Part shown: piece by piece, positions 3,058 to 21,655 of the stretch
Position numbering within the stretch: the stretch's first letter is position 1
Layout: each line of letters begins with the position of its first letter
Notes under the pieces: model-generated
Database searches by the model: none
What the model saw: only the letters and a program-made list of their open reading frames with translations
Told to the model about the DNA's origin: nothing
Source: Bryobacterales bacterium
GTDB lineage: Bacteria; Acidobacteriota; Terriglobia; Bryobacterales; UBA6623
Direction: 5' to 3'
Length of the DNA: 64,000 nt
Assembly (NCBI GenBank): GCA_028819235.1
Contig: JAPPMC010000310.1
Coordinates: 1-64,000 of the forward strand
Made by a program: the position numbers and the translations under genes

Positions 3058-6000
3058 CGAGCTTTCGGTAATACTCCGCTACGGCCTCACGGTAGGTCTC
3101 CGGAACAGGCTCCGAGACGATCGCGCGGACCTCTTCCTTGTCGTCGAGCTCTACCTGTCTGCGCAGCTTGACCTCGATGTGCTCTAGCATCTCAAGCAGC
3201 TTTCGGTACTCGTCCTGAAGCAGTTCGGGGTTGCCCAAGAATCGACCATCGCCCAATTCGCGGGCGAAGGCGCGCAGCTGTGCGATCTCGCGAGGGTCAA
3301 ACTCCCGGTTGAGCCGCAACTGCTGCGCCAGCCGCGGCAGTTCGGCCACGCCGGATTCAAGGGCGCGCTCCATCCGCTCCCGGACCTCGGGCACGTCGGC
3401 CGGGGTCCGGAACTGTCCGAGCCGACGGCCGTCGCCCAAGGAGCCGGCGCCGCCCCATCCGCTTCGCCACTCGCCCCGCTGGCCGCCCGCACCACTGCCC
3501 GCGCGTTCGGAGCCGCCCCGCTGGCCGCCCCCGGCTTGGCCGTCTTCGCTGGGAGTGTTCCCGGGCCGGTCCCCTTGGCCATCTTGCCGGCCTTGCTGCC
3601 CCTCGGTTGGGGCCATGGCGCGTTCCATGTCCTCGCGCAGGTCCTCGACACCCGCGAGCAGGCGCTGCAAGCCGCGCTGCGGTCCGCTGCCCTCGTCGTC
3701 GGCCAGCTCGCCGGCCCGGCGCAGCCGGTCCCGCAATTGCCTCATGGCGCGCGAGATGGCCTCTTCGTTGCTGGCGGCGTAGGGCGCGAGCCCCCGGCGG
3801 ATCAGGTCTTCGGCGTATTGCATTGCGGGCAGCGCTTCGGATTGCTGCAGCTCGATCAGGGCTTCCATCAGCGCTCGTGACGCCTCTTGGTTCCGGTCGC
3901 GCATCAGCCGCGACTGCCGCTGAAGGCCACGCTCGATCTCCGCGAGCCGCTCACGCATGTCGCTCTTGCGGTCCGCCAGATCGACCTCCTCCTCGCGCGT
4001 CATGCCCGTCGGGAGCGGGCCGGTCTGTCGGCCCCCCTGCGCCTTGAGCGCTTCCAGCGCGACCTTGAGCGACCGCTGGAGCTCGGCCGCGGTCTGCGCC
4101 TGCTCCTCGGCCAAGGCCTCCGCCTCGCGTGTCATCTCGGCCACCGCAGTCTCGCTCTCCTGCCGTCGCTGCTGGCGCATCGACTCCAGCGCCCGCTCCA
4201 GCTCCTGCTGGGCGCTGGCAGTTGTGGAGCGCGGGTCCCCGCCTTGATTGCCCCTCTCCATCTCGCGGGCGGCCCGCTCCAACTGCCGGATCGTGCGGTC
4301 GAGCTGCTGCGAGCGGCCTTGTCCACCCTGACCACCGGCCTGCCCTTGGGAGCCCTGCTGGGATTGGCTGTCGCGCGCCTGCTGCCGACGTTGCAGCTGC
4401 TCCAGCTGGCGCCGTAAGTCCTCGGCTTCCCTGCGCAGCATCTCCTGCTGCCAGCGCTGCTCGAAGCTGTTGCGGGAGCGGTCTTGGGCATTCTCGGCCA
4501 GGCGCTCCTGCCGGCGGGCAAGCTCCTCAAGCTTCTTCATGGCCTCGTCGATCTCTTGCTCCATGCTCTGGCCAGAGGCCCCGCCGCCAGTCTCGTACTG
4601 GTTCTTCTCGAGGTCCATCTCCAGCTCGAACATCTCGGCCAGATCGCGGGAGGCTCCGCCCCCGCCGCCCCCGCCCCGTCCCATCGAGACCTGAATGTCG
4701 GTGAACAGGTTCTCGGCCCTGAGCAAGTACTGCAGAGCCTGCTGCTCCGGCCGCACCGCCTCGTCCAGGCGGAAGGCCTGCAGCGCGGCAGCGGCCGGCT
4801 GCATGTGGTCCGCGGCCTGCTCCATGAACTCGGCGAACTTGGCGAACTTCGGATCCGTTCCCGTCAACTGGCGGGCCCGTGTCCGCTGCACCAACGTCTG
4901 CGCCTGCTGCATGAGTGTGGACTGCAGCTCGGAGAGCATCTCGGCGCTTTCGCGCAGTTTCTCCTCTTCGCGACCGTCGTCAGCGTCCCGTTCCTTGATG
5001 AGGTTCCAGGTGGCGACGATGATCTCCTTTTGGCGACGCGAGATCTCGTCCTGCTGTTGCTGCCCCTGCTGGCCCCCGGCAGCTTGCTGGGACTGCGAGA
5101 AGCGGCGCTCGAAGGGCTGCACGGTGATGAAATACATGTCGCTGCGCACTTCGCGCTTGGCGTCGCGGGCGACGAGGTAGTAGCTGATGATGTCGCCGGC
5201 CATCAGGCTGGCAGGCGGTAGCGGCGGCGGCAGATCGCCCGTCTGGGAGGGAGTTCCGGACGGCAACGGCAGCTCCGCGGCGCGGCCTTCCGGTCCGAAC
5301 TCCTCCAAACGGAACATGTGGCGGGCGACGGCCTCGAGGCGCCGTCGCCCCCCGGCCAGCCGCACTGCGTCCTGCTCGACACCGTTCACTGCGTATTCCA
5401 GCCGCAGTTCCCGGAGCCCGAAGTCGTCCTCGGCCTCAACCCGAAGCATGACTTCTTCTATGCTCGTCGCTCGCCAGTCCCGACCGGGCTCCAAGATCTT
5501 CACCGACGGCTTCTCGTCGGGCACGACTGTGATGAAGTAGTCGTCTGTCAGCCGGACCCGCTCGCCCTTGTGGTAGGCCGCAACGTGGTAGGTCGAGTCC
5601 TCGCTGACCTCGATTTCGGCGCGGAGATCGCGCACCCCCACCTCGTCGTCCTCAACGACAAGCACTCCGTCATCGAGCGGCTTGTCAGTCGTCAGCACCA
5701 CCGTCACTCGCGTACCCTCGACGGCCATGATGTCCCCGCCTGGGTCTTGCACGCCGGGCTCAAGGCCGCTCCAGTCCGGGTACTCTAGCTCCAGCCGGAT
5801 GTTCTCCACCGTCGGCATCGCGATGACGTCGACCTTGAACTCGCGACTGCGGAGCCTTTCCGCCTCCACGTAATAGCGAAGGGACTCCCGCACCAGCGAG
5901 AACGTGAACTCGTACCCGGCACCTTGCGGGTCAGGGCCCATGGGGGCGCGCTCCCAGTCCACGCTGCTGTCGAACTTGGCGTAGATCTCGACCAGACCTG

Positions 6001-6688
6001 GCTCAAACCCCAGCGGCAGGGCGGACACCTCCAAGCGCCCTCCCTTGCGGATCGACGTGTCTCCCGGCTCAACCTTCAGTTCGTAGAACGGCTCGTCGTG
6101 CGTCAAAAACCAGCCTGTCCAAAGCCGGGATGTGCCGTAGCTCCAGTACCCTGGACCGGCCGTTCCGAGCCACACCAAGGCCGCCACCGCGAGGATCCCG
6201 GTCGCCGCGAATGCCGCCATCAGCGGTCGGCCAATCACGCTGTCCAGTTGGACCACGGCGGACGTGTCTCGCGTCTCCCTCGCGAGCAGTGCCAGCAGGG
6301 GGCTTGGCGCTCTGCCCGTCCCCCGTGCCCGCTCGCGCTCGTCGGCCCACGTGCGGAGCCGGCCACCAAACGCCTCCGAGCGGCGCTCGGCCCTGTCTGC
6401 GGCTCGGAGGAAAGCCCGTCTGCCCGCCAGGCGGCGCAGCGGTAGCACTAGGGACAGTACGAGAACGCTGCCCAGCGCAATGGCCAAGAACATCCGCGAG
6501 CCGACCACGCTCGCACTGGAAAAGGCCGCCCGGTTGGCCAAGTAGACGCACAGGGCCGTCACGCACAGCGCGGTCAGTCCCAGCGCACCTAGGCCTCGGG
6601 TCGCCGCGGTCGCCCTCAGGCGGCCCGCAATCGCGCCGAGATATTGATCCAACCCAACCGATCGCTCGTCCTGATGCCCGAAAAGCAA
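3044..6688 (-). CDS. DUF4175-type giant membrane-anchored protein of the Bat/MoxR cluster
   Basis: A 1,214-aa protein. Three hydrophobic segments near residues 38-55, 67-85 and 155-175 anchor the N-terminus. A long extracytoplasmic part with beta-rich sections follows (about 200-530). From residue 550 to 1050 it becomes Gln/Glu/Arg-rich with strong coiled-coil character, broken by low-complexity runs of Gln (near 540) and Gly (near 670) and a disordered Gly/Gln/Arg stretch (1050-1110). This layout is that of DUF4175 proteins, which accompany MoxR, DUF58 and BatA genes. The biochemical role is unknown; a scaffold spanning the envelope is an inference. The TTG start at 6688 follows GAGG closely and is 6 nt from the BatA-type stop. 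Another in-frame TTG follows about 12 codons later. Confidence 0.85.
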   Translation of the reverse strand: MLFGHQDERSVGLDQYLGAIAGRLRATAATRGLGALGLTALCVTALCVYLANRAAFSSASVVGSRMFLAIALGSVLVLSLVLPLRRLAGRRAFLRAADRAERRSEAFGGRLRTWADERERARGTGRAPSPLLALLARETRDTSAVVQLDSVIGRPLMAAFAATGILAVAALVWLGTAGPGYWSYGTSRLWTGWFLTHDEPFYELKVEPGDTSIRKGGRLEVSALPLGFEPGLVEIYAKFDSSVDWERAPMGPDPQGAGYEFTFSLVRESLRYYVEAERLRSREFKVDVIAMPTVENIRLELEYPDWSGLEPGVQDPGGDIMAVEGTRVTVVLTTDKPLDDGVLVVEDDEVGVRDLRAEIEVSEDSTYHVAAYHKGERVRLTDDYFITVVPDEKPSVKILEPGRDWRATSIEEVMLRVEAEDDFGLRELRLEYAVNGVEQDAVRLAGGRRRLEAVARHMFRLEEFGPEGRAAELPLPSGTPSQTGDLPPPLPPASLMAGDIISYYLVARDAKREVRSDMYFITVQPFERRFSQSQQAAGGQQGQQQQDEISRRQKEIIVATWNLIKERDADDGREEEKLRESAEMLSELQSTLMQQAQTLVQRTRARQLTGTDPKFAKFAEFMEQAADHMQPAAAALQAFRLDEAVRPEQQALQYLLRAENLFTDIQVSMGRGGGGGGGASRDLAEMFELEMDLEKNQYETGGGASGQSMEQEIDEAMKKLEELARRQERLAENAQDRSRNSFEQRWQQEMLRREAEDLRRQLEQLQRRQQARDSQSQQGSQGQAGGQGGQGRSQQLDRTIRQLERAAREMERGNQGGDPRSTTASAQQELERALESMRQQRRQESETAVAEMTREAEALAEEQAQTAAELQRSLKVALEALKAQGGRQTGPLPTGMTREEEVDLADRKSDMRERLAEIERGLQRQSRLMRDRNQEASRALMEALIELQQSEALPAMQYAEDLIRRGLAPYAASNEEAISRAMRQLRDRLRRAGELADDEGSGPQRGLQRLLAGVEDLREDMERAMAPTEGQQGRQDGQGDRPGNTPSEDGQAGGGQRGGSERAGSGAGGQRGEWRSGWGGAGSLGDGRRLGQFRTPADVPEVRERMERALESGVAELPRLAQQLRLNREFDPREIAQLRAFARELGDGRFLGNPELLQDEYRKLLEMLEHIEVKLRRQVELDDKEEVRAIVSEPVPETYREAVAEYYRKLGAAK

Positions 6689-6694
6689 CTTCCT

Positions 6695-8707
6695 CTAATC
6701 CCCCCGCAAAGCGTCAAGGTGACGGTTTGCTATGAGGGATTCTAGCAGCACTGCAAGCGCTAGAAGGACCAGCAGCAGGCGCCAAACGCGCCACGGGGGC
6801 ACTTCAGGCTCGGGAAGCCCGGCGGCCAACCCTCCCGATGCCTCAGCGGCGCTGGAGCGCCACAGTTCGAGCGCGTCCCCCTCCGCCCGGCGCAGATTTG
6901 ACTCGCGCGGATCGGGGTTGACGGCCTGGAGTTCGAGCCCCCTCGCGCCGCGGATCTCGTAGAAGCCCACCGAGTCGAGGGGCAGTGCTTCACGCTCGAC
7001 GGAATCGGACAGGGTCAGCACGGGCTCGCCGGAGGGGTCGACTACTTGCACGGCCCCGCCCCTGTCCCTGCGGCTGCCCAGCTCGAGAATGTCTCCGAAA
7101 GTTGCTTCGCCTCGACGCCTCTCGGACCCCGTAAGGAGCCGGGCCGTCTCGACCACGAACGGAACGTAGGTCGGCGTCACCGGGAGGTTGTTCCAGACGT
7201 TGTCGAGGGCCGACGCGAACAGGAGCGTACGGCCTCTTCCGATCCGGTGCTCGATCAAGAGCGGATCCCCATTCGCCATGCGCATTGGGACGCTGTCGCC
7301 GTCCTGCGTCGATATCCTGCCGTACAGGTAGAAGCGCACCGGTCGAAGGCCGTCCGTCGCTTGGGCTACGGGATGGGTCACATCGGCCTGCCCGGCCAGC
7401 TGGAACGGTGCCCGCCCGCGCTCGGAGGACAGGGGCTGCTGGACGGCATGGCCGGTCATTGGGGCCCGCCGCACCAGGGCCGAATTCGGCCCGATCGCCA
7501 CCAGCAGCGCACCGCCCGCTTCCAGCCAGGCCCGCAAGCGGTCCTCGAATCGCTCGGGAAGGCGCACCACGTCGGAAAGCACGATGAAGGCGTACGCTCC
7601 CGGATCGATCCGCGCCAAGTCCGCCGGCGAGGCAACCTCCAGCACGTAGCGGCTGGACTCGCTCGACTCGAGCGCAGCACGGTAGTACAGCACGTCGCGG
7701 CCATTCGCGTTCTGGGCCACGAAGAGTAGGGGGTCGGGCTCGCTGTTGTCCACCGCGATGCGGCGCACGTCGTCGTCCGCCAGGTCATCAGTCGGCTCGA
7801 TCCTCACCTCCGCCCGGCTGAAGCCCCGGGGAGCATCACGTATGTCAAAGGAGAATTCGACTCTCTCCCACGCGGGCACCTCGACTCGCTGGCTTCCGGA
7901 AGGCTGGCCGTTGATCCACAGAGAGACAGTCTTGGATGCCTCGCGTTCTGCGTAGCTTGCGACCGTTCCCTCCAGCGTTGCCGCCTCTCTGCCGTACACC
8001 CTCGGGTCGCCCTTGATGCTGTCGACAGCCCAGTTGGCATCTGTTTCGCTGCCAACACCGTGCAGCACGAGCTCGGTGTGGGGCGGAAGCACAAGGTCTT
8101 GGAAGCGCGACGGCATTGCGGAGTGCTGCAGGTCGGAGATCACATGTAGCCGCGCGGGTCCAGTTCCCTCTTCGACCAGATTGCGGGTCGCCTCGACCAC
8201 ATCGCCGTAGCTGTTGCTGGCCTGCGTCGGGGCGAGGCCCGCGAGCGCCCTGCGCAAGATTGCCACATCGGCGGTGGGCTCGGTCAGCACACTCACTGAC
8301 GGCCCGTTCGAGAGCAGCTGGGCACGGTCGCCGGGGGCCAGCGCTTCGATGATCTCGTCGGCCGCTTCCTTGGCTGCTTCCCAGCGGTCGCCGTGTCCCA
8401 TGCTCAGGGAGGTGTCGACAGCTATCAGGTGCAGTAGGGGGATTCTCCCGCCGAGCACGGCCGGGGGCCGTTCCCAGACCGGCTTCGAAAAGGCCAGCGC
8501 CAGCAGCAGCAGTACGGCCAGCCTCAGCGCCAGCAACAGCAGGTAGCGCAGTCGGCGCTCCCGGATCGTGGTGTCGGTGCGCTTCTGGAAGAACATCAGC
8601 GAGCTGAAGGTCAGCTTGACCGGGTTGCGACGACGCATCAGGTGCAGCCAAAGGGGCAGCCCTACCGCAAGTGCGCCGAACAGGAACCAAGGTGCGAGCA
8701 GCCCCAT
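6695..8707 (-). CDS. BatA-domain, von Willebrand factor A protein
   Basis: A 670-aa inner-membrane protein. The first 80 residues are the BatA N-terminal module: a hydrophobic helix, the LPLWLHLMRRRNP motif, and a second helix LLLLALRLAVLLLLALAF. A vWA-like domain follows, with DTSLSMG near residue 95 giving the metal-site DxSxS pattern. The middle carries a glutamine-amidotransferase-like alpha/beta region (FIVLSDVVRLPERF, about 375-390), and a last hydrophobic helix near 645-665 closes the protein. Proteins of this type occur beside MoxR ATPases and DUF58 proteins and are linked to envelope stress or complex assembly. The start lies 5 nt after the DUF58 stop and the stop 6 nt before the DUF4175 start, so it is firmly in the operon. 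Confidence 0.87.
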   Translation of the reverse strand: MGLLAPWFLFGALAVGLPLWLHLMRRRNPVKLTFSSLMFFQKRTDTTIRERRLRYLLLLALRLAVLLLLALAFSKPVWERPPAVLGGRIPLLHLIAVDTSLSMGHGDRWEAAKEAADEIIEALAPGDRAQLLSNGPSVSVLTEPTADVAILRRALAGLAPTQASNSYGDVVEATRNLVEEGTGPARLHVISDLQHSAMPSRFQDLVLPPHTELVLHGVGSETDANWAVDSIKGDPRVYGREAATLEGTVASYAEREASKTVSLWINGQPSGSQRVEVPAWERVEFSFDIRDAPRGFSRAEVRIEPTDDLADDDVRRIAVDNSEPDPLLFVAQNANGRDVLYYRAALESSESSRYVLEVASPADLARIDPGAYAFIVLSDVVRLPERFEDRLRAWLEAGGALLVAIGPNSALVRRAPMTGHAVQQPLSSERGRAPFQLAGQADVTHPVAQATDGLRPVRFYLYGRISTQDGDSVPMRMANGDPLLIEHRIGRGRTLLFASALDNVWNNLPVTPTYVPFVVETARLLTGSERRRGEATFGDILELGSRRDRGGAVQVVDPSGEPVLTLSDSVEREALPLDSVGFYEIRGARGLELQAVNPDPRESNLRRAEGDALELWRSSAAEASGGLAAGLPEPEVPPWRVWRLLLVLLALAVLLESLIANRHLDALRGD

Positions 8708-8712
8708 CTCGC

Positions 8713-9603
8713 CTATCGTCTCCTTAGGCGGTACAGAAGGTACTCCCGCAGTGCCAGATCCAGGGGCTGCGAAGTGTCCAGGAGCACGTAGTCGGCCCCC
8801 TCGCTCACAATCTTCTTGCGGAGGGTCTCGATGTGGTCCTGGATGCGTCCCGGGTAGACTCGACGGGCGTAGTCGGCGGACACTTCCATCTCTTCCCCGG
8901 TCTCCATGTCCTCGACCAGGGCTGCGGTCCGGAAGCCCGGGGCCAATTCGGAAGGATCAAGCACGTGGAAGCAGATCAGATCCTTGCCCTGGTTTGCTAC
9001 GGACCGCAGAGGGTTCACGATCTCTTCAGGATCGGCGAAGAAGTCCGAGATCATCGCCACGAGGCCCCTACGGCGGAGCAGCCGGGCCAGCACCTGCAAC
9101 GGCACGTGCAAGTCCGTTCCGGTTGCGGCCTCGGCCTCCTCGAGCACGTGCAGAATGCTCTGCAGGTGCCTCGGGCGGTACTGCGCAGGGCGAACCTCGC
9201 GGACCTGCTCGTCGAATAGGACGAGGCCGACCCCATCGTGCTGGCACGTGGAAAGGTACGCCAACGAGGCCGCCAGGAACCGTGCGTAGTCCAACTTGGT
9301 GGTCTCGCCCGAACCGTAGCCCATCGAAGCGCTGCAGTCCAGCAGGATCATCAGGTGGGTGTTCGTCTCCCCGAGGAAGCGCTTGATGTAGACGCGGTCA
9401 GTCCGCGATAGGACATTCCAGTCGATGTAGCGGGGATCGTCTCCCTCGGTGTAGGAGCGGTATTCCGCGAATTCCTGGCTGAATCCAAACTGTGGGGAGC
9501 GGTGGCCCCCGTGCAGGAAGCCGTCAACTACCGTCTTAGCCACCAGCTGTATGTTGGCCAGCCGCTGCAGGATGCCTGGATCCAGGAGATGCTGGCTGCT
9601 CAT
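8713..9603 (-). CDS. DUF58 domain protein (vWA-like), MoxR partner
   Basis: A 296-aa soluble protein. The DUF58 signature YTEGDDPRYIDWNVLSRT lies at about residues 52-69. It is followed by a vWA-type domain starting LLDCSASMGYG near residue 88, a metal-site motif. No membrane segment is visible. DUF58 proteins are regularly encoded next to MoxR AAA+ ATPases, and the pair is thought to act as a chaperone for vWA-containing membrane complexes. Here moxR is 58 nt upstream and the BatA-type gene 5 nt downstream on the same strand. Confidence 0.9.
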   Translation of the reverse strand: MSSQHLLDPGILQRLANIQLVAKTVVDGFLHGGHRSPQFGFSQEFAEYRSYTEGDDPRYIDWNVLSRTDRVYIKRFLGETNTHLMILLDCSASMGYGSGETTKLDYARFLAASLAYLSTCQHDGVGLVLFDEQVREVRPAQYRPRHLQSILHVLEEAEAATGTDLHVPLQVLARLLRRRGLVAMISDFFADPEEIVNPLRSVANQGKDLICFHVLDPSELAPGFRTAALVEDMETGEEMEVSADYARRVYPGRIQDHIETLRKKIVSEGADYVLLDTSQPLDLALREYLLYRLRRR

Positions 9604-9661: not shown

Positions 9662-10696
9662 TCACTCGGCGGCCGGTCGGGCCTCGATCATTGCCTTGAG
9701 AACGTCGTCCACGGTCGTCTTGTCCGACTCAGCGTAGAAGTTTGTCAGGACGCGGTGCCGCAGGATCGGCAGCGCCAGTACATTTATGTCGTCGACCGTG
9801 ACGTGGTAGCGGCCGTTCAGCAGCGCGCGCGCCTTCGCCGCCAGCACGAGGAACTGGGTGGCCCGGACACTGGCGCCAAAGTTGACATACTTGCGGACGA
9901 TGTCCGGCGCCTCCGGATCCGTCGGGCGGGTCGCGCGCACGAGCGAGACCGCGTACTTCGAGACCGGATCAGAGACCGGTACTTGCCGCACCAGCCACTG
10001 GAAGCTCAGGATATCTTCGGCGGTGGTGACCGGGACAACATCGGGCAGGGGCGTGCCGGCCGTATTGCGGTGCACGACCTCGATTTCCTCCTCCGTGGTG
10101 AGGTATTCCAGCAAGACGTTAAACAGGAATCGGTCCAGCTGTGCCTCTGGCAGCGGATACGTCCCCTCGAGCTCGATTGGGTTCTGTGTCGCCAGCACGA
10201 TGAATGGAGGCTGCAGCCGGTAGCTCGTGCCGCGGACGGTTACGGAGAGCTCCTGCATCGCCTCGAGCAGCGCGGCTTGCGTCTTGGGGGGTGTGCGGTT
10301 CACTTCGTCAGCCAGCAGGACGTTCGTGAACAGCGGCCCTTGGACGAAAGTCCAACTGCGCCTGCCCGTCGAGGAGTCCTCCTCGAGGATGTCCGTGCCC
10401 GTGATGTCGGTCGGCATCAGGTCCGGAGTGAACTGAATGCGCTTGAACGTCAGGCCCAAGGCTGACGCAAGAGTGCTGACCAGCAGAGTCTTCGCAGTGC
10501 CCGGCATGCCGGTGATCAGGCAGTGCCCGCCCACCAGCAGTGTGATCAGCAGGTTGTCGACCACCTCTTCTTGGCCGACGATGATCAGCCCGACTTGGGT
10601 TCGAATGCGCTCCATTGAAGCGCTGAACTTCTCGACCAACTCCTCGGCATCTGCTGTATCCGTGGTGAGGGGCTCCGCCGTTTGGAGGGTTTGCAT
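9662..10696 (-). CDS. MoxR-family AAA+ ATPase
   Basis: A 344-aa AAA+ ATPase of the MoxR group (usual length 310-350). Walker A is GMPGTAKT near residue 64. Walker B is VLLADEVNR near residue 128, followed by the helix TPPKTQAALLEAM characteristic of MoxR. Sensor 1 is FIVLATQNP near residue 164, followed by EGTYPLPEAQLDRF with the arginine finger. These ATPases remodel or help load metal cofactors into vWA-domain partners, which here are encoded on both sides. It begins 8 nt after the upstream peptidase/TPR gene. Confidence 0.94.
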   Translation of the reverse strand: MQTLQTAEPLTTDTADAEELVEKFSASMERIRTQVGLIIVGQEEVVDNLLITLLVGGHCLITGMPGTAKTLLVSTLASALGLTFKRIQFTPDLMPTDITGTDILEEDSSTGRRSWTFVQGPLFTNVLLADEVNRTPPKTQAALLEAMQELSVTVRGTSYRLQPPFIVLATQNPIELEGTYPLPEAQLDRFLFNVLLEYLTTEEEIEVVHRNTAGTPLPDVVPVTTAEDILSFQWLVRQVPVSDPVSKYAVSLVRATRPTDPEAPDIVRKYVNFGASVRATQFLVLAAKARALLNGRYHVTVDDINVLALPILRHRVLTNFYAESDKTTVDDVLKAMIEARPAAE

Positions 10697-10704: not shown

Positions 10705-12963
10705 CTAACGCTGGACTTGCAGCAGGAGCTGGAGCGCGGGCCGGAATGTTGGAGCGCGCTCGAGAGCTTGGAGCACATGCTCCCGCGCTCGCGCAAGATT
10801 GCCTAGCTTAACGTAAGCGCGCGCAAGGTTGTACTCGGCCGTCGCCCGGTCGAGCGGGTCCATCGCCAGAACGGCATCAAACGCTTGCTTCGCGGCTTCC
10901 GTGCGGCCAGACCCGAGATACAGCTCGCCCAGGCGGGCATGCAGATCTTCGTCTTGGGGCCAGTTGTAGATCAGGCCCTCATATGTGTGGACGGCCGCGT
11001 CGGCCCGGCCGGCCTCCTCCAGCCAGCGGCCAAGCTTCTTGAGCGTCTCCGGCATCCGCCCGCCGCGCCGCTCATACTCCAGCAGCTCCTCTATCGCCGC
11101 GGCTCTGTCCCCGCCTTCATCCAGCGCCCTCGCAAGCAGCACGTAGGCGCTGCCGCTTCCTACGTGTTGCGGGTAGGCGGCTTTGGCTCTCCGCGCCGGC
11201 TCCACTGCGGCAGGCCAGTCCCTTCCGCGCGCTGCCTCCAAGGCCTCCTTCAGGCTCTCGCGCCAGCGCGGCAGGCCGTCGGCCGCCGGGCCGAGAACTT
11301 CCAGCATGTATTCCTCAAAGTGCTCGTCAATCTCGTCCGTGCTCATGCCGAGCACGGCCTTGAGGTTGGCGGGCGTGGTCTTGTCCTGCGCGAAGCCGCG
11401 CAGCAGGTCCACCAGCTTCGGCTCGCCCCAGCGGTCGGCGATGAACCGGCACACGAAGCCGGCCTGCATGTATGAGATCGCCACCTGTCCGGGATGTTTG
11501 GGCCGGATGAAGCCGCGGTCCAGCTCCGCCAAAGGCAGGAGATCTCCCTTGCGGACGGCCTCGACGTACTCTGGCCCGATGGACTCGCCCCAGCGGGGGT
11601 CCGCCATCCACTCCTCGTACATCGAGATGCCCTCGGAGTACCAGCGCGGGACCAAGTGGTCGGTCGCCTCAAGAGTGAACACGTGGGCCAGCTCGTGCCA
11701 AAGGGTCGTGCCCCAGTGAAAGCCGCCGGGCTCGCGACCCGACGGGCTGTCCATCGCAACTACATAGCCGAACGTGACCCCTAGCAGCCCGATGCCCGGC
11801 ATTGCCATCGTGCGGACTGCGAAATCGTCATGATTCGGGTAGAGTTCGATCCGCACCGGCTCCTTCAGAGCAAAGTCGTACTTGCGCGAGAACTCCGCGA
11901 CGGCCCGTCTGGTCAGCGAGCGCACGAACGGCAGCAGCAGGGCGGACTCGTCCTTGTCCAGCTTGAAGAGTGCGCTGACCTTGCCCGGGTCCGCCGGATC
12001 ACGGTCCTCGAACGTCTCGAACTGGTCCGAGCTGTCGAGCAGCCGAAGAGTGTTGACGGTCTTGGCGCTGTAGGGATCGCCTCCGTATGCGATTTCGAGA
12101 TGCTCCCGCCCTTCTCGTTCTCGGCCTTCTCGCAGCAGGTTCACTCCCAGCTCCGCGTGTGCCCTCCAGAGGTTCGGCGCCGTGCGCACTGCCTTCCGCA
12201 GTCGTTCGGTCGCCTCGCGGTATCTGCGAGTGATCACGTAGAAGTGGGCCTGTTCCGCGTACACCTGGCCGTAGCGCTGGTTGTATTCCAGCGCCTTGGT
12301 GACCCATTCGTTGTCGCGCGTGCCCTCCAGCATCTCGAGAGACGCCAGCAAGGCGTACGTCTCGAGGGGCACTGTGCCCAGTTCCCGCACCCGGCTCAGG
12401 GCTTGTTTCAGCGCCTCGCGCCCGGAGGACAGGTCGCCTTCCTCCAAGGCCATGCGGGCGGTGAGGAGGTGGCCCAAGACTTGGTCCGGGCGTTCCTCGA
12501 GGGCTTGCTCGACCAGATCGGCCGCCTTGCCCTCGAATCTGGACGCCAGCACGGTCGCCATGCCCAGCAGCGCGGGGACGTGCTCTTCGTCCAGCTCCAG
12601 TGCTTCCTGGAACAGATTCGCCGCCTCACTGTCCTGATGGGATTCCAGGTACAGGTACCCCCACCGCACACGAAGCTCAGGATCCTCGGGATCGAGACGG
12701 ACGGCTTCCCGAAAGTTGTCGTTGGCGGCCTTGAGGTCGCCAAGCATCCAGTAGGCTTCGGCCTGAGCGCCGGCGTTCCCCCTCCGGGCGATGCCCCGGT
12801 AGCACGAGGCCGCTTCTGCCACGTTGCCGCGGTCGTGCATCGCGTCGCACGCCCTCAGGTCAGTGTCCCTGACGCCACGCTCGTCGCCGCGCGCTGCAAG
12901 GGCTACGGGAGCAGCCGCCAGCGCGATCGAGGCCGCCCGCAGCCAAGCGCCTGAGAGCGTCAC
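10705..12963 (-). CDS. TPR protein with an internal gluzincin-like (HExxH) peptidase domain
   Basis: A 752-aa protein. A signal peptide-like start (residues 1-22) precedes TPR repeats over about 30-290. A metallopeptidase-like domain carries HELAH near residue 420 and WYSEGISMYEE about 20 residues later, the spacing and Glu expected of peptidase-MA-like gluzincins. A second TPR array fills about 590-745. If folded as predicted it is a secreted or periplasmic zinc hydrolase embedded in protein-binding repeats; its substrate is unknown. The GTG start at 12963 overlaps the TGA of the caspase-like gene by 4 bp (GTGA), so the two are probably translationally coupled. HExxH proteins of this kind are not among the usual Bat components, although TPR proteins are. 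Confidence 0.83.
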   Translation of the reverse strand: MTLSGAWLRAASIALAAAPVALAARGDERGVRDTDLRACDAMHDRGNVAEAASCYRGIARRGNAGAQAEAYWMLGDLKAANDNFREAVRLDPEDPELRVRWGYLYLESHQDSEAANLFQEALELDEEHVPALLGMATVLASRFEGKAADLVEQALEERPDQVLGHLLTARMALEEGDLSSGREALKQALSRVRELGTVPLETYALLASLEMLEGTRDNEWVTKALEYNQRYGQVYAEQAHFYVITRRYREATERLRKAVRTAPNLWRAHAELGVNLLREGREREGREHLEIAYGGDPYSAKTVNTLRLLDSSDQFETFEDRDPADPGKVSALFKLDKDESALLLPFVRSLTRRAVAEFSRKYDFALKEPVRIELYPNHDDFAVRTMAMPGIGLLGVTFGYVVAMDSPSGREPGGFHWGTTLWHELAHVFTLEATDHLVPRWYSEGISMYEEWMADPRWGESIGPEYVEAVRKGDLLPLAELDRGFIRPKHPGQVAISYMQAGFVCRFIADRWGEPKLVDLLRGFAQDKTTPANLKAVLGMSTDEIDEHFEEYMLEVLGPAADGLPRWRESLKEALEAARGRDWPAAVEPARRAKAAYPQHVGSGSAYVLLARALDEGGDRAAAIEELLEYERRGGRMPETLKKLGRWLEEAGRADAAVHTYEGLIYNWPQDEDLHARLGELYLGSGRTEAAKQAFDAVLAMDPLDRATAEYNLARAYVKLGNLARAREHVLQALERAPTFRPALQLLLQVQR

Positions 12964-13889
12964 GGTGTCGGGTCAGCCTCCGTCGCTTCCGAGATCTGGC
13001 GTTGAATTTCCGCCATGTCGAGCAGCAACTCCTCAAGCGCTTCCAGATACTCCGATGGTTCCATGGAGTCCTTGCGGAGAGTCAGTTCGGCGATGCGCCC
13101 TTCCAGGCCTTCACGCTGCTCCAGCAGCGCCCGCGTGTCCTCGCTCTCGGCCAGCGCTGCACCCTCCGCCAGTCTGGCGAGCAGGAATGCGTCCGCCCGG
13201 TCGCCCTGCAGTTGCGGGTGCTCGGTGGCCAGCCGCTGGCGATCCGCGTAGTGCCCCTTGACCTTGCGCTCGGCATACTGGAAGGCCTCCAGCGCAGAGA
13301 TGGCTTCGTTGCGGTTGGTGTCGGCGCCGGCCTCGCCGAAGGCTTCCGCAAAGAACTCCCCGAAGATCGTGGCATTTCTTTCACGGCCGCTCTTCGTGGC
13401 CGTGATGACCACGCGGTGCGGGGCCTTGAGGGCCTCGAGCATGCCCCCGCTCGAGCTGGTCGTGCTCACCACCAGCTGGCGCGCGGCCGGGACTCCGTCC
13501 AGCCAGTGCTTCAGCTGCGAGCCGCTGATGTCCGGCCCGGGAATATTGAACTTGTACCCGCTGCCATCATGCGTGCCATGCCCGACCAGGAGCACGGCCA
13601 GTGCGTCTCCGGGCTGCATGGAGGTCGCCAGACGCTCGAATGCCGTTCCGATCCCGGCGGAGGTCGCATTCCCGCCCGCCAGCACGGTGACAAGACGCTC
13701 GTCGCCCACCGTGCTCCGAAGTGCCTCGCTCATGCGCTCCACCTGATTGCGGAAGCGCTCTGCGTACTGCTGCGTGCCTCCCAGCCCCTCAACCAGCAGG
13801 AAGTGGGTCGCCGCGGGAAGGCGATCATTGCCGAAAGTCAGGCAGGCGACCACGGTGCATGCCGCCGCTGTCCGTTGCCGGAACGTCAC
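12960..13889 (-). CDS. Caspase-fold (clan CD-like) secreted protein lacking the catalytic Cys
   Basis: A 309-aa protein read from the GTG at 13889. That start is preferred because it overlaps the upstream TGA by 4 bp and follows a G-rich ribosome-binding site; in-frame starts at 13919 and 13970 lie deeper in the upstream gene. Residues 1-28 form a signal peptide (hydrophobic TAAACTVVACLTF). The caspase/legumain-like core has a beta strand ending in GHGTHDG (His104), the usual catalytic His. The second motif, normally D-x-C-x-S-G, reads T-T-S-S-S-G-G at 143-149, with Ser145 at the Cys position. ITATKSGRERN and TNRNEAISALEAF match the later part of such domains. The C-terminal 75 residues look coiled-coil. 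Protease activity is doubtful; a binding role or unusual Ser chemistry is possible. Confidence 0.78.
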   Translation of the reverse strand: MTFRQRTAAACTVVACLTFGNDRLPAATHFLLVEGLGGTQQYAERFRNQVERMSEALRSTVGDERLVTVLAGGNATSAGIGTAFERLATSMQPGDALAVLLVGHGTHDGSGYKFNIPGPDISGSQLKHWLDGVPAARQLVVSTTSSSGGMLEALKAPHRVVITATKSGRERNATIFGEFFAEAFGEAGADTNRNEAISALEAFQYAERKVKGHYADRQRLATEHPQLQGDRADAFLLARLAEGAALAESEDTRALLEQREGLEGRIAELTLRKDSMEPSEYLEALEELLLDMAEIQRQISEATEADPTP

Positions 13890-16138
13890 ACGATCCCCCC
13901 GCGTTTGCGTAGCAGCCATTCGGAGGCCCGCAGCGCCAGCAGGAGCAGGAAGACGGCCGGCATGTCCCACAGATCCAAGACCTCGCGGGTAGTGATACCC
14001 GCTTCCGAGAAGCCGATCTCGGCGGGGAGCGCGTCCAGCTCGTCCAACTCCCAGTATGCGCCGCCGGTTTGTTCTGCGAGGCGTTCCAGCAGTGTGGCGT
14101 TGCGCTCGGGGCGGAAGTCTTCCGCGACGCCGCCCTCGCGCCGCACGTGCAGAGTGTCGGCGCCCAGCCGCTCGTCGCCCAAGTGTGCCACCGCCTCCAC
14201 CTGATAGACACCTGTCTGCGGAGCGTCAACCTCGGCCTCATACACCCCGGGCTCGCTTGCCGATGGCCCCAGCGGAACGGTCCTAGGCGGGCCCTCCTCC
14301 GGGTGCACGGTGGCACTAACCCGCGCGTTATTGGCGTGACGGTAGCTGCGGTCCCGGACCTCCGCTCGAAGGATGACGCGAGACTCGTCGGCGTAAGTGG
14401 ATCGGTCGCTGGTCAGCCGAACGGGCCCCGCCGAGTCCACCACTAGCGCCCGCAGCAGCTGGCGCCAAAATGTGTCGTGTCGCTCGTCGTCGCTGGGCAG
14501 CCCCATGCGCCAGCGCCATGTGCCGCCCGTCGCGAAGATAATCGACCTTCCGCGGCCATAGTTGTGCCGCAACAGGAGGGGCAGGGAATCAGTGCCGTAG
14601 CGCACTGAGAGCAGTGTCGTTGCCGCAGGCTTGAGCGGACCGATACGCTGGAAGTCGGCCAGTTCCGGCAGCCCTTCCCAGAGTTCCTGGTTCTCCTGCG
14701 GGTCGGTCGACAGCCGGCTGATGAGCGAGTCGCGGCCTTGCGGCGCGATCTCGACCCTAACCTTCTCGCGCAGGAACGACGCTTCCCCGGCCTCGAGTCG
14801 GGCCGGAAGCGCATCGACGATCTCAGAGTTTTGCCAGCCGCCCGCTCCCAAGCCCCTGCGGCCGGCCAGCATCATCAGCGTGCCCCCGCGCCTGCTGACG
14901 AACTCGCGGATGGCGACCTGCTGCTTGGGCGTGAAGAATGCGGCCTCGAAGCTTCCGATGATCAGGGCGTCATAGGCGAAGAGGTCTTCCTCTCCGGAAG
15001 GGAAGCCGTCCTCCAGCTCCTCGGGGGTGTCGACCCCTTGCCGGTAGAACTTGTTCGTCGATGTGCGCAGCAGCGTGACGAGTTGGACGCTGGCGTCTTT
15101 CGCTACGGCGCGCCTCATGAACTTGTACTGCCAGCGTGGCTCGCCCTCGGCATAGAGGATTCGCCGCCTCCTGCGCGGAACGTCAAGCACGTGGCGGCGG
15201 CGGTTGTTGCCCTCAATCTCTTCCCCCACGGCGGGCTCGACAGCAAACGTCAGGTCGCGTACGCCGGGCTCCCCGGCGCCAAAGTCCAGCCACACTCGGG
15301 TCACCGGTTCGCCTGGATTCAGGGTCACCGGCTGGACGGCTACTACGCCGGACCCGTCCCGCACGGTGATGCGCGTTGATGTCTCATCCTGCAGCGAGTG
15401 GCGCACTGTCATCTGGGCGGAGACGCGGGAGCGTGGCAGCGATCTGGAAGGCACTGAGATGTCAGAGAGCTCGATGTCCCCGTCGATGCGCACTCGACCG
15501 ACGCCCACCGTGTGCACCGGCACGTTGTGCTGCCGGATCTCGGTCGCCAGCTGGCGGGTGAACCGGCCCGAGTTGTCCGATCCGTCGCTGACGACCAGCA
15601 GGGCACCCAATGGGACTGCTGTCGATTCGCGCAAGACGGAGACGACGGACTCGCCGATGGCGCTGCTGGCCCCCGGCTCGGGGAATGCCGCCGGTTCTAG
15701 GCTGGGGAGACGCTCCGGCCGGGTTGAGAATCCATACAGGCGGATGCGGAAGCGGTTCCCGAGTCCCGGCAGCACGTGTTCTCGAAGAGCCTCCGCCGCC
15801 GCCGCCAAGCGAGTCTGCCCGTTCTCCACCAAGGCCATGCTCCGCGAGGTGTCCACGAGAACGGCGACCGCGTTCTGCCGGCTCTTAAGGGACTGGACTG
15901 CCAGTGCGGGCTGCCACAGCAGCGCGAGGACCAGCGCTGCCGTCAGCGATTGCAGGCCCCAGACGGCCCACTGAGTCGCGGGGCTCAGACGGCTCGGAGA
16001 GCGCCGGGCATGCCAAAGTAGCGCGGCTGCTGCCGCGACAGCGGCACCGGCGAGAAGCCAGCCCGGCCAGCCAGTCGCGAAGACGACCTCGCCCTTGCGG
16101 TAGGCCGCCAGCGGAAACTTGAACAGGAGTTCGAACAC
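13886..16138 (-). CDS. vWA and glutamine-amidotransferase-fold membrane protein, first gene of the Bat-type operon
   Basis: A 750-aa protein. Membrane helices lie near residues 25-43 and 62-80, and a C-terminal helix near 730-745. A von Willebrand A domain begins VAVLVDTSRSMALVE near residue 92 with the DxSxS metal site. A beta-rich middle (about 220-320) leads to a GATase1-like alpha/beta domain: RRILYAEGEPRWQYKFMRR near 335, then DALIIGSFEAAFFT and GGTLMMLAGRRGLGAGGW. Class-I amidotransferase Cys chemistry is not evident. Such proteins partner the BatA-like protein encoded further down. The GTG start at 16138 has only a weak ribosome-binding site. A CATAAT at 16159-16164 (minus strand) could be a -10 box, but no good -35 accompanies it. 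Confidence 0.84.
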   Translation of the reverse strand: MFELLFKFPLAAYRKGEVVFATGWPGWLLAGAAVAAAAALLWHARRSPSRLSPATQWAVWGLQSLTAALVLALLWQPALAVQSLKSRQNAVAVLVDTSRSMALVENGQTRLAAAAEALREHVLPGLGNRFRIRLYGFSTRPERLPSLEPAAFPEPGASSAIGESVVSVLRESTAVPLGALLVVSDGSDNSGRFTRQLATEIRQHNVPVHTVGVGRVRIDGDIELSDISVPSRSLPRSRVSAQMTVRHSLQDETSTRITVRDGSGVVAVQPVTLNPGEPVTRVWLDFGAGEPGVRDLTFAVEPAVGEEIEGNNRRRHVLDVPRRRRRILYAEGEPRWQYKFMRRAVAKDASVQLVTLLRTSTNKFYRQGVDTPEELEDGFPSGEEDLFAYDALIIGSFEAAFFTPKQQVAIREFVSRRGGTLMMLAGRRGLGAGGWQNSEIVDALPARLEAGEASFLREKVRVEIAPQGRDSLISRLSTDPQENQELWEGLPELADFQRIGPLKPAATTLLSVRYGTDSLPLLLRHNYGRGRSIIFATGGTWRWRMGLPSDDERHDTFWRQLLRALVVDSAGPVRLTSDRSTYADESRVILRAEVRDRSYRHANNARVSATVHPEEGPPRTVPLGPSASEPGVYEAEVDAPQTGVYQVEAVAHLGDERLGADTLHVRREGGVAEDFRPERNATLLERLAEQTGGAYWELDELDALPAEIGFSEAGITTREVLDLWDMPAVFLLLLALRASEWLLRKRGGIV

Positions 16139-16971
16139 CGCCGCTTACTCTGCACCCGATTATGCATGACACCTGCGGACTCGTAGCATTGTTGGCTCCG
16201 CTGGGAAGCGGCCCGTTCGCTTGGGGCAGCGTGGAATGGCCACCAGATCGCGGCCCAGCTGTCGCCCTACTGCCGCGCGGGGCACTGCGCCAAGGAGCAG
16301 TACATTCGCCGCCGCCCCTGTCAGGCTTGGACTTGCCTATCCCAGCAGCTGTCTCACGCAGACTAGTCCGACACCGTCGACTCACCCGCTGTGTCGGCGG
16401 CGCGGCTGGCGTTAGTCTGGGCACTGATGCCACACCCTCATTCATGGCGGCCGCCGCAGTCGAAAGGCTGAGTGCCGCAAGCCGGACCGGTTGGTCGGAT
16501 CCCGTTAGCGCCTCTGTCGAGTCCATCTGGACTGCAGGCGCAAGAAGTGTTCTCCTGCGAGTGTGCCGCGCACGCTCTGCCAACTGCACTGCCCCCCCAC
16601 AGGTTGCTGGGCCGGGCGGTCAGCGCAGCCGGCACCCCCGGCATTCTCAGCCTGCCCGCACTGAAGGGCGTTCTGGCCTTCGTTGCCCTCAACCTCTCCG
16701 ACGTCAATCGCAAGATTGCACAGAACGTATCGCATGGACAGCGGCCCGGGCCGTTCCGCGACCTCAGCGCACTGCCTAAGATCGCATTTCAATCTGACGA
16801 GCCACGCACAATTGAAACCGATTGCACGCCCATCCCGAGCCGAGTCGGATTGGGTGGCTCTCGTGTCCTATTTAGATCCAGATCGTGGCCGAGAGGCGTA
16901 CGGTCCGGACGGAGTTCCACTTTGACTGGTCTCTTCCTCGCGTAGTCGCGGCCCCAGCGCCCCGCCACCGT
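16139..16971. other. 833-bp interval without a recognisable gene
   Basis: Several overlapping open frames exist on the plus strand (for example 16162-16779 and 16472-16945), but none resembles a known protein and their Arg/Ser/Pro-rich composition suggests frames opened by high GC. The interval contains the upstream region of the Bat-type operon and the 3' side of the ATPase operon. It may hold decayed coding sequence. Confidence 0.4.
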
Positions 16972-19884
16972 TCAAACAAATACACGGTGACTGTATCCCA
17001 GTGGTGGAAGCACCTCTTCCAGCAATTGGCGTTGTTCGAGCGGCAGCCTCAAGAGCTGACGTTCGTCACCGGTCTTGGTGAATGTGACTGCTGCATGGAG
17101 CATCCCTAGGGGAATCCGGCAACCCGGCAGGTCCGCCAACGAAGAATTCAGTCTCCCGAGTGCTGTCTCCCACTCGTCCACAGAGCCCGCGAAGCGCGAG
17201 ATATCGTGTATCAGAAGGTCCGTCAGGATCCCGCCGAGGATGCCTTCGTGGACCAGACTCGCGAACACATAGCGCAGTCTCACTAGGCCCTCGGGAAGAT
17301 ACCGCGCACCAAAGTTTCGCACGGATCTCGTCAAGATCGCCACCGTCGCCTCTCGATGGAGCTCTTCATTTCGCTTGAAATCTTCGGCATCGACGCACAC
17401 GCCGATGGTCTCCAAGGCCGTCCCCAGGGGTCTGCCCGCGGCGATTGCCTCTGCGGCAAGCAGCCGGCCCAGAAGAGAGCTGCCCGGCAGCGTTTCGACC
17501 CGCGCGGCGCTATTCATCGCCTCGTCGATTGCTCCGTGGTCGATGTAGAGTCGAGACCGCTGGATCCAGAGTTCCCGGTTATGCGGGTCAAGTACCGCGA
17601 CCCGGTCGAGGTATCTCTCGGCGGCCTCGAATTCGCCTTTCCGTCGAAAATAAGAGGCCGCCCAAAGCAAGGAGGGGTAGTCGACCGTCCGCAGCAGTTC
17701 GTCAAAGGCGGACATCGCCTCTTGAGAACGTCCCAGCTTGTCCAGAGCACGTCCGCGAACTAGATGTGCGTGATCGTGCTTCGGATCGATCTCGAGGAGG
17801 TGCTCTGCAACCTCGATCGCTTCCGTGAACTCCCCGGACAATAGCAAGGAAGTTGCTAGTTGGCATTGCGTTCTTACGGATCCCGCATGGCGGGAGGCGT
17901 GTTGTCGCAGTTCCACGGCAGCGCTTCGGTACTTTGCCATGTCGAACAAGAGAGAGCCGCGCAGCTGCCGCGCGTCTCCGTCGTCCGCATCGACGGCGAG
18001 CACCCTATCGACGAGTTCGAGGGCCCGACTCAGCTGGCCTTGCGAGTCGTGGAATCTCGCCGCCACGAGCAATGCCCCTGGTTCCGACGGCGCACGCTGA
18101 ACGAGATCCCGTGCACAGGCCTCGGCATCCGCAACTCGGCCAAGACCGACAAGCCCCTCCATGATCTGCGAGAACCCGTGCCAGTGATCTGGCTCCACTT
18201 CGAGCATCGTCTCGGCCTCTTCGATCGCGTCCCCGAAGCGCCTAAGGCGTAGCAGGATGTTGGCCCGGAGGCAGGACTCTGAGGGTTGGGCACCGTGGGC
18301 GATCGAATGATCGATTGCGGCTAGGGCGTTGTCAAACTGACGCTCTAGGAAGTACGCCTCCGAAAGATTGCGATACACCCCGCCGTCCTCAGGGTGTCTC
18401 GCCAAGGCTTCCCGACCGGCCGCTATCGCTGCTTGGCTGTCGCCTGCCTCAATGAGAGCGTAGACCCAAGAGCGATAATCCGTCACATCGCCGCCATCCC
18501 GCGCCAGTGCCTCCTGAATCGTGGCGAGGCCGGCATAGTCTCCAGCATCCCAGCAGCGTTGGGCTTCGTCATGAAGCGCGTCAAGGAAGGGCTCTTGCCG
18601 CTCCGCTAGTGAGCAACTGAGTGCCTCGTCAACGTGGAGGCGATCCAACACCGCAAGTGGCGCATCGCGCTGATCCGCCGCGCGCCGCCGCTCAAGCTCG
18701 CGCGATGTGAACCAGTGACGAAGGAACTCGACGAACAGGCGTAGGTGCCGAGTCTTGTTGTCCTTCACTTCGATACAGATGCGCATCAGCGGCTCTGAAA
18801 GCTCGCAGAAGGTGTTGCGCCCCAACCGGTTGCGGTTGACGAAACCCACTCTCACCAGTTCCCCGATCTGCTTGGCGGCCGTCTGCTGTGACATCAGGCA
18901 GGAAGTCGATATGTCCTTTACCGTCGCGGGGGTTCCCTTGAGGCACAGGAACTCGATGATTTTCCGCTGAGCCGGGGGGATCTGACGCATTTTGCCTTGG
19001 TAGTACGGTGTAACGTGGTCGACCATTTGCATGAACGGACCGACCAGATCCTTCAGCGATTCCTTGTCCAGAAAATCGAAGAGCACCACGTAGGCGCGGT
19101 GGTTTCCGGCGGCGAGGTGGTGGACGGCCCGTGCCCGCGCCCTACCGATCGGCGTATGGAGAAAGTCTGCTAGGTCAGGTTTGCCCTCGTGTACAGCCTT
19201 CTTGGCAAGAAGGTCGATTCCCGTTTCGAGATCGATCTGCTCAAGTGCGCGGATGGTGAAGAAGCCGTAGAAGGGGTTGTCCTGTAGCGTAAGGGCGGCA
19301 AACAACTGCGGGGTTGTCGCCACAATGGCCCAGTTCCCGTCCTCTTGGATGGCTGCCCTCCAGCGCTTCTGGCCTTCGTCGCCCAAGCCGTGAAACAAGT
19401 CCACGAGGTTCTCGCAAAGAAGCAGGAGCGTCTTGCCTTCGGTGTGCCTCCAAAGCAGTCGGGCAGCGCATGACTCGGCGGCCACGGGGTCTTTCGAGAA
19501 CGTGTCGTATACTTCGGCGATCTTCGCGTTGAGCTTTGGCGCATCTTCGGCGAGAGCTCTCAGGATCCGAACGGTCAGGTCGAGATATGACGCGACGCCC
19601 CACTCTTCTTCCTTGAGCACGGCGATGGCGACGCTGTCGCCGACGCCGTCTTCGTCGAACGATGCCATCAGGCGATGATAGGCGAGGACGAGGAGGTGGG
19701 TCTTGCCCGAACCCCTCGGGCCGACCAAGAGAATGTAGTGCTTCTCTGGCCCTCGGATCGACGCAGAAACACGCGACAGCACATCTTCCATCACGTCGTC
19801 CCGCCCCACGAAAACAGCCTCCAACGACTCGCGATCCATGTTTCCTGGGCTGTATCGCGACCTGTGCAGGACTCCCTGCCTCAT
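16972..19884 (-). CDS. AAA+/STAND-like ATPase with winged helix and TPR array
   Basis: A 970-aa protein from the ATG at 19884, which overlaps the TGA of the upstream ATPase gene by 4 bp (ATGA). The upstream in-frame ATG at 19923 is less likely. Residues 25-270 form an ORC/STAND-like P-loop module: VFVGRDD, Walker A VGPRGSGKT near 52 and sensor-like IVATTPQLF near 190. The Walker B position near 150 reads LLLLCEN, with Cys instead of the usual Asp but the Glu kept. A winged helix follows (QRKIIEFLCLKG...SQQTAAKQIGELVRVGFV, about 305-355). About 450-870 are TPR-like helical repeats. No nuclease, protease or membrane effector is visible. Architecture suggests a signal-sensing switch protein; the biological role is unknown. 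Confidence 0.8.
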   Translation of the reverse strand: MRQGVLHRSRYSPGNMDRESLEAVFVGRDDVMEDVLSRVSASIRGPEKHYILLVGPRGSGKTHLLVLAYHRLMASFDEDGVGDSVAIAVLKEEEWGVASYLDLTVRILRALAEDAPKLNAKIAEVYDTFSKDPVAAESCAARLLWRHTEGKTLLLLCENLVDLFHGLGDEGQKRWRAAIQEDGNWAIVATTPQLFAALTLQDNPFYGFFTIRALEQIDLETGIDLLAKKAVHEGKPDLADFLHTPIGRARARAVHHLAAGNHRAYVVLFDFLDKESLKDLVGPFMQMVDHVTPYYQGKMRQIPPAQRKIIEFLCLKGTPATVKDISTSCLMSQQTAAKQIGELVRVGFVNRNRLGRNTFCELSEPLMRICIEVKDNKTRHLRLFVEFLRHWFTSRELERRRAADQRDAPLAVLDRLHVDEALSCSLAERQEPFLDALHDEAQRCWDAGDYAGLATIQEALARDGGDVTDYRSWVYALIEAGDSQAAIAAGREALARHPEDGGVYRNLSEAYFLERQFDNALAAIDHSIAHGAQPSESCLRANILLRLRRFGDAIEEAETMLEVEPDHWHGFSQIMEGLVGLGRVADAEACARDLVQRAPSEPGALLVAARFHDSQGQLSRALELVDRVLAVDADDGDARQLRGSLLFDMAKYRSAAVELRQHASRHAGSVRTQCQLATSLLLSGEFTEAIEVAEHLLEIDPKHDHAHLVRGRALDKLGRSQEAMSAFDELLRTVDYPSLLWAASYFRRKGEFEAAERYLDRVAVLDPHNRELWIQRSRLYIDHGAIDEAMNSAARVETLPGSSLLGRLLAAEAIAAGRPLGTALETIGVCVDAEDFKRNEELHREATVAILTRSVRNFGARYLPEGLVRLRYVFASLVHEGILGGILTDLLIHDISRFAGSVDEWETALGRLNSSLADLPGCRIPLGMLHAAVTFTKTGDERQLLRLPLEQRQLLEEVLPPLGYSHRVFV

Positions 19885-21053: not shown

Positions 21054-21072
21054 AGTACGTGCCTCACGCCGA

Positions 21073-21102
21073 ATTATATACGCCAATATTGACGTACGTC
21101 AA
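21073..21102 (-). promoter_or_regulatory. Near-consensus sigma-70 promoter of the two-ATPase operon
   Basis: On the minus strand TTGACG (21102-21097), an 18-bp spacer and a perfect TATAAT (21078-21073) are followed after about 14 nt by GTGAGG, the ribosome-binding site, and then the GTG start at 21053. The predicted transcript start near 21066 gives a very short leader. This is the best match to consensus seen in the window. Confidence 0.7.
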
Positions 21103-21113
21103 TTCTGACGTAC
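21089..21113. promoter_or_regulatory. Palindromic operator candidate overlapping the -35 box
   Basis: TTGACGTACGTCAA (21089-21102) is a perfect 14-bp palindrome that contains the -35 hexamer. The half-site TGACGTAC occurs again at 21106-21113, 16 bp from the first copy at 21090, roughly one and a half helical turns upstream. A dimeric repressor binding here would occlude RNA polymerase. No typical repressor gene is adjacent, so one of the winged-helix ATPases may itself bind; this is inference. Confidence 0.55.
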
Positions 21114-21655
21114 TTCAGCGCCATTGCCGACCCGCCCGGTGGATTCGGGCAAGGCGACCAATCCAGGGCGGCGTCGGGTGTCTGGTCCTGTACACCCTCC
21201 GCACCGACTCCGGAGACCAGACCTGCCGGTAGCGGCACTACTTCGATGACGAGCCCGCCGCCCGAGTTCCGCAGGCTGTCCGACTTGTCGGTCAACTGCC
21301 GCAATACGGTGGCCATTGCCGTTCGCTGGGCCTCGGCGGGGGATATTGGAACAGGGTCCCAGACGGTGCGCCGCTCGGGAAGAGCCCATTCTCGTGCGTC
21401 TTTGGCCGACAGTACGTGAGGTCCGCGAGGCGGTTCGGCGAGTCCTCCAGCTTCGGGGTAGGCCGCTGCGAATGGCGCAACTGCCGGATTTGATCGCTGA
21501 GCATGCGGGAGCGAAACACTGGCAGCCAAAGGCTGCGACTGCCATTCGTCGCGGTTCGATCCGTCGTAGACTGCTGCGCCAGCCCTCACAGCAGCTTCGC
21601 ACTCGTCGCTGATCGCCCGCTGGTCTGGTCAGTCTTCCGGGGCCGACCCTCTCGG
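21114..21655. other. Interval between ATPase promoter and DUF4159 gene, no clear gene
   Basis: About 540 bp. Open frames exist on both strands (plus 21316-21612, 98 aa; minus 21074-21589, 171 aa). Neither resembles a known family, and the minus one would run across the ATPase promoter. I see no repeat or RNA gene. Confidence 0.4.

Follow-up and report, generated by a model that had tools for sequence, protein, structure and literature searches.

A probable caspase/legumain-fold pseudopeptidase with serine in the catalytic cysteine column, encoded in a Bat-type operon of a Bryobacterales bacterium

The window analysed here is a 64,000-nucleotide stretch of a Bryobacterales bacterium (contig JAPPMC010000310.1, positions 1 to 64,000; assembly GCA_028819235.1). 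Its minus strand encodes a 309-residue protein that has the fold of legumains and caspases and carries serine in the column of the catalytic cysteine. The gene lies in an operon together with MoxR, DUF58 and BatA genes. This protein is probably a secreted pseudopeptidase that serves an envelope machine of the Bat-like MoxR/vWA kind as a fixed subunit and binds a partner or substrate noncovalently. The gene and its parts are as follows:

12960-13889, minus strand: caspase/legumain-fold pseudopeptidase gene (309 residues plus stop, GTG start)
13809-13889, minus strand: signal-peptide-like segment at the N-terminus (residues 1-27, with LPAA/THF at its end); most homologues have a hydrophobic stretch here
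13578-13580, minus strand: His104 codon, part of the GHG motif and paired with the catalytic His86 of Arabidopsis metacaspase-4; His in 168/168 homologues
13455-13457, minus strand: Ser145 codon (AGC) in TTSSSGG, the catalytic-Cys column, paired with metacaspase-4 residue 139
13287-13322, minus strand: 12-residue loop resembling an EF-hand (residues 190-201, DTNRNEAISALE), with predicted helices 176-183 and 199-216 on either side
12975-13142, minus strand: predicted helical hairpin at the C-terminus, residues 250-305, formed by model helices 250-271 and 278-305

His104 is found within LVGHGTHDG and Ser145 within STTSSSGG. The only cysteines of the protein, Cys11 and Cys16, are both in the N-terminal segment. 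The sole Pfam match is Peptidase_C13 (PF01650; 22.6 bits versus a cut-off of 22.8). NCBIfam has no family for the protein, PADLOC, consulted for membership in a defence system, gave no match to the protein itself, and the best matches in a single-sequence search of solved structures had E-values of only 0.13 or worse.

An AlphaFold2 model was computed for the window protein, with 18 homologues as further input. Its mean predicted local distance difference test score is 84.6, with ten-residue block means of 82-97 over residues 31-230. The model is most similar to legumain by Foldseek (E-value: 6.6e-8) and aligns with it by VIA-align over 196 residues (Z 21.4, root-mean-square deviation 2.3, 12% identity). 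Metacaspase-4 is matched with Z 19.7 and 22% identity, and 410 of the 1000 aligned chains reach Z >= 8. The model thus has the alpha/beta caspase-hemoglobinase fold of clan CD, and the possibility that no caspase fold is present was rejected on these Foldseek and VIA-align matches. An earlier note, made from the DNA letters alone, had predicted a caspase fold; this is correct, with the refinement that the nearest Pfam family and fold match is legumain/C13, not the caspase family C14. Among 48 family members, Pfam matches at E <= 0.1 are found to Peptidase_C13 in 30 (best E-value: 1.4e-8) and to Peptidase_C14 (PF00656) in four; neither the window protein nor its genome has a Peptidase_C14 match. 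The legumain and metacaspase chains cover approximately residues 23-244, leaving the C-terminal hairpin outside the matched fold. This region has conserved residues (L269, K273, Y281 and A293) and, judged from the model, is a candidate docking element.

A 48-row family profile matches Arabidopsis metacaspase-4 (E-value: 1.7e-5). In this match, His104 lines up with His86, and Ser145 with position 139. Passages of PMC7206013 name Cys139 and His86 as the catalytic residues of this enzyme; position 139 is a mutated residue, Ala, in the matched crystal form. Because the profile pairs Ser145 with the catalytic Cys139 position, Ser145 can be assigned to the nucleophile column. Both motif claims of the earlier note, an intact GHGTHDG histidine motif and a serine in place of the catalytic cysteine in TTSSSGG, therefore hold.

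Homologues are present in 59 of 61 close genomes and in 115 of 396 genomes of the same phylum. The 115 include one genome with only a remote Cys-type match (G135, locus L064) and one with only a C-terminal fragment (G216). The homologue loci used are part of the places listed by the phylum search. They number 179; L064 falls under the threshold, and the remaining 178 matches give 168 distinct aligned rows. The sample represents one phylum, probably Acidobacteriota, almost entirely, plus one Gemmatirosa plasmid, which was the single record found in the plasmids searched; the viral contigs searched held no homologue. As the gathering profile was itself built from Ser members, the sample leans slightly towards Ser rows.

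The column inspection suggested in the earlier note was carried out on these rows. Column 145 contains Ser in 138, Gly in 10, Ala in seven, Thr in four, Asn in four, Glu in three, Pro in two and Cys in none, so the cysteine nucleophile of an active clan CD cysteine peptidase is missing from all 168 homologues. Four distant relatives from the same phylum (L180-L183), excluded from the 168-row count, do have Cys in this column (PCFSGG, QCYGGG, DTCHSA and DACHSG). Since these relatives hold Cys in column 145 and keep the Asp-rich loop, loss of Cys in the pseudopeptidase family is the simplest reading. Decay peculiar to the window gene was ruled out, as the Cys-less state is family-wide. A nucleophilic Cys elsewhere, which the earlier note had considered improbable, was looked for and rejected: the aligned domain is entirely free of Cys in 110 of the 168 homologues, and the two cysteines of the window protein are N-terminal. 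Columns 104 (His), 120 (Asp), 190 (Asp) and 201 (Glu) are invariant, and Glu223 is present in 167 homologues. Residue 143 occupies the position of Asp137, given in passages of PMC7206013 as the S1 acid of metacaspase, and is never Asp (T 93, A 38, M 22, G 8, S 4, C 2, L 1).

The history of column 145 was followed on an IQ-TREE quick tree made without the motif columns, with a FastTree version as comparison; the root was not formally inferred. The IQ-TREE tree requires at least 20 state changes at column 145 and at least 14 switches between Ser and non-Ser, nine of them within the rows that have Gly148. FastTree gives the same 20 changes and 14 switches. Ser147 requires three changes (IQ-TREE), and columns 104, 120, 190, 201 and 223 require none. 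In the 131 Gly148 rows, column 145 is Ser in 120, Thr in four, Asn in four, Pro in two and Ala in one.

A hydrophobic N-terminal stretch is found in 152 of the 162 homologues with enough upstream sequence, and many of these stretches end in AxA-like sites, from which the pseudopeptidase is predicted to be exported. Lipidation through Cys16 was considered and rejected: a lipobox-like match is limited to 17 of the 162 upstream segments, so a lipoprotein state is not a family trait. EF-hand loops have 12 residues with the consensus D-x-D/N-x-N/D-...-E and stand between helices. This pattern is present at residues 190-201, with both ends (Asp190 and Glu201) in all 168 homologues and model helices on either side; Pfam EF-hand matches are weak and limited to a few of the 48 members. 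The loop suggests calcium binding, and the pseudopeptidase is perhaps calcium-stabilised.

Of the 37 rows that lack Gly148, 34 form one well-supported paralogous clade with an SFPF-like motif in place of SG (including L026, L028, L033, L045, L047, L052, L054, L056, L061, L062, L070, L071, L081-L084 and L086-L098). Drift at column 145 is strongest in this clade, where the residue is S, G, A or E. Where their context is known, its genes mostly close a BatA-DUF4175-vWA string, while others follow a TPR/HExxH gene; those of the main branch are located between the vWA gene and TPR/HExxH, DUF4159 or MoxR genes. A pattern scan of named genomes used an 8-residue gap between GHG and KFN (seven in the window protein), which restricted it to insertion variants; 17 of its 18 loci are of the SFPF type. 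One SFPF-clade homologue of Acidobacteriota type comes from a metagenome-assembled genome titled Bifidobacterium breve (L096, CALQBJ020000040.1), an assembly that is probably mislabelled or contaminated.

The surrounding genes of the operon are as follows:

13886-16138, minus strand: vWA/GATase1-like gene, upstream neighbour with 4-base overlap (weak Pfam matches)
10705-12963, minus strand: TPR and Peptidase_MA_2 (HExxH) gene, downstream neighbour with 4-base overlap (Pfam, above cut-off)
9662-10696, minus strand: MoxR-type AAA_3 ATPase gene (Pfam)
8713-9603, minus strand: DUF58 gene (Pfam)
6695-8707, minus strand: BatA N-terminal/vWA gene (Pfam and further family annotation)
3044-6688, minus strand: DUF4175 gene (Pfam)
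21656-22462, minus strand: DUF4159 gene, an operon member with a two-gene block between it and the vWA gene (Pfam)

The operon is of the Bat type, as it unites MoxR AAA_3, DUF58 and BatA genes. TCAC on the plus strand at 12960-12963 and 13886-13889 corresponds to GTGA overlaps on the coding strand with both neighbours, and these overlaps and the two neighbours are as the earlier note described. The matches of the upstream neighbour (VWA_2, 19.3 bits; GATase1_like, 24.9 bits) are each under the Pfam cut-off. Conservation of the operon is strong, with a recurrent order, DUF4159 - vWA - pseudopeptidase - TPR/HExxH - MoxR - DUF58 - BatA - DUF4175, across loci. Sixty loci have longer flanks, some of them truncated where the contig stops; among these, the vWA gene is immediately upstream in 53, and MoxR and DUF58 genes are on the same strand in 39 and 38, respectively. 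The Gemmatirosa plasmid has the same gene set, with DUF4159 in the reading frame that precedes MoxR, and Ser at column 145. DUF4159 is present in 122 of 392 genomes, including 113 of the 115 with a pseudopeptidase profile match; the exceptions are G135, with its Cys-type match, and G450, possibly outside the 392-genome sample. The TPR neighbour keeps HExxH in all 54 homologous frames, in contrast to the lost Cys of the pseudopeptidase.

In the window, the block between the DUF4159 and vWA genes spans 16139-21655 and encodes a 983-residue AAA_16/TPR protein (16972-19923) and a 401-residue protein without a Pfam match (19881-21086). DUF4159 and vWA genes are adjacent in a locus of the same genus (L078) and in most loci with DUF4159 upstream, and neither block gene turned up in the loci listed. 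The block is likely an insertion into the operon.

The earlier note had proposed a structural or regulatory role for a pseudo-caspase in tight Bat-type linkage, and this part of its proposal stands. Its treatment of the Cys-to-Ser replacement as special to the operon copy does not, since none of the 168 family members has the Cys. Several observations weigh against a noncovalent, fixed operon subunit. The TPR/HExxH gene is immediately downstream in only 31 of the 60 loci. Ser is nearly fixed in the window protein's own class (66/68), as would be expected of a catalytic residue, and column 145 is conserved above most: only 60 of 273 columns change less, and the median is 40 changes versus its 20. 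On the aligned sequences, the perfect invariance of His104 and Asp120 exceeds the needs of a plain scaffold. Of the 30 non-Ser rows, 19 are without Gly148. The SFPF clade may have a different role, and some non-Ser rows from metagenome assemblies may be errors.

A rival reading is catalysis by Ser145, which the earlier note had offered as unusual Ser-based chemistry. The protein could be a Ser/His hydrolase, a transacylase or a slow autocatalytic processor for which most lineages recruited Ser145 as the nucleophile and some later gave it up. The invariant His104 and the prevalence of Ser (138/168, 120/131 in Gly148 rows and 66/68 in the window's class) agree with this, as do the Ser145 codons: both AGY (124 rows) and TCN (14 rows) are used, and Ser was therefore kept or regained across the codon gap. 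However, 30 of the 168 homologues have G, A, T, N, E or P instead of Ser, which weakens the case for Ser catalysis; in 26 of them the residue is non-nucleophilic (N, P, A, G or E) while the rest of the site is intact. At least nine switches occur even within the Gly148 rows, and the open-licence literature searched yielded no Ser-nucleophile enzyme of clan CD. Such an enzyme is unlikely here, and from the alignment Ser catalysis across the whole family also seems unlikely. That the proteins of lineages with fixed Ser145, such as the window's class, are true Ser/His-dyad caspase-fold enzymes, processing envelope proteins or themselves in the MoxR/vWA machine, is quite improbable; if true, they would be a serine counterpart of clan CD.

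A thiol shifted by one residue appears very improbable. Under this explanation Cys146 (TxCSG) would be the nucleophile in some lineages, and the family would mix active and inactive members. Cys146 is present in 15 of the 168 rows, and five of these (L030, L154, L157, L171 and L172) combine it with T or N at 145 (TTCSG/TNCSG), possibly a displaced thiol in one lineage. Against this, residue 146 fills the x position of CxSG, and in the metacaspase-4 alignment it lies opposite the residue that follows the catalytic Cys. The column is mostly A, S or G and changes 39 times on the tree, and the proposal does not apply to the window protein, which has Ser there. It is also doubtful that the protein is a purely structural relic whose fold merely positions the C-terminal hairpin against the vWA or TPR proteins, with the old active site unused. 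Drift at column 145 and a conserved hairpin beyond the matched fold would fit such a relic, but His104 (168/168), Asp120 (168/168) and Glu223 (167/168) are invariant or almost so, and their conservation suggests that the pocket is still in use.

The proposed model for the pseudopeptidase as a noncovalent binding subunit is as follows. The fold, the catalytic-type His, Asp120 and the EF-hand-like loop would have been retained, while the Cys nucleophile probably disappeared close to the family's base and the metacaspase S1 acid was not kept. The exported subunit would bind a partner or a substrate segment without covalent chemistry. It may guide the adjacent, intact TPR-HExxH metallopeptidase, possibly by passing substrates to it, or it may hold the vWA assembly. 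A secreted pseudopeptidase beside an intact HExxH peptidase would give Bat-type operons a concrete subunit with testable residues (His104, Asp120, the loop and the hairpin). If the model is correct, a caspase fold is used family-wide without its nucleophile and with its His invariant, allowing a direct test of what pseudopeptidases keep and why.

Among known systems, legumain/Peptidase C13 (the GPI8/PIG-K-type fold) is the closest, providing the best structural match, the GHG His motif and the C13 Pfam matches. The window family differs in having no Cys nucleophile, 12% identity and a score just below the Pfam cut-off. Metacaspases and orthocaspases (C14), represented by Arabidopsis metacaspase-4, are alike in profile and structure, and the calcium use of metacaspases described in parts of PMC7206013 and PMC4357240 may be a further likeness; in the window family, however, the Cys139 position is replaced and the Asp137 position is non-acidic. 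Pseudo-orthocaspases of cyanobacteria and rhizobia are presumed inactive, with Cys replaced by Ser and His usually by Tyr (passages of PMC6426788). The window family shares the Ser but differs in its gene context, its C13 Pfam matches and its unreplaced His (168/168), which sets it apart from the Tyr-Ser type. Sections of PMC3501461 report Ser as the commonest Cys replacement in substituted prokaryotic metacaspases and include a single Gemmatimonadetes sequence without the dyad.

VMAP MoxR-vWA conflict systems offer a precedent: they likewise combine MoxR, vWA and caspase-superfamily domains, and approximately 70% of the caspase domains in the effector position are described as inactive in portions of PMC7159879. 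There the caspase is fused to a VMAP or vWA protein; the window protein stands free, has 309 residues and a signal-like segment, and belongs to a Bat/DUF58/DUF4159 operon. Neither DUF58 nor DUF4159 is mentioned in the main text of PMC7159879. The open-licence papers searched contained no description of this pseudopeptidase family and no mention of DUF4159.

Inactive caspase-fold proteins as such are already known. Trypanosoma brucei metacaspase 4 is reportedly a caspase-fold pseudopeptidase with a biological role; it is one eukaryotic paralogue, not a family-wide state of a bacterial operon. MoxR/vWA operons of the Bat type occur widely, and how they work is, to our knowledge, unsettled. The window operon resembles them in the order of its AAA_3, DUF58 and BatA/vWA genes, to which it adds the pseudopeptidase, DUF4159, DUF4175 and TPR/HExxH proteins.

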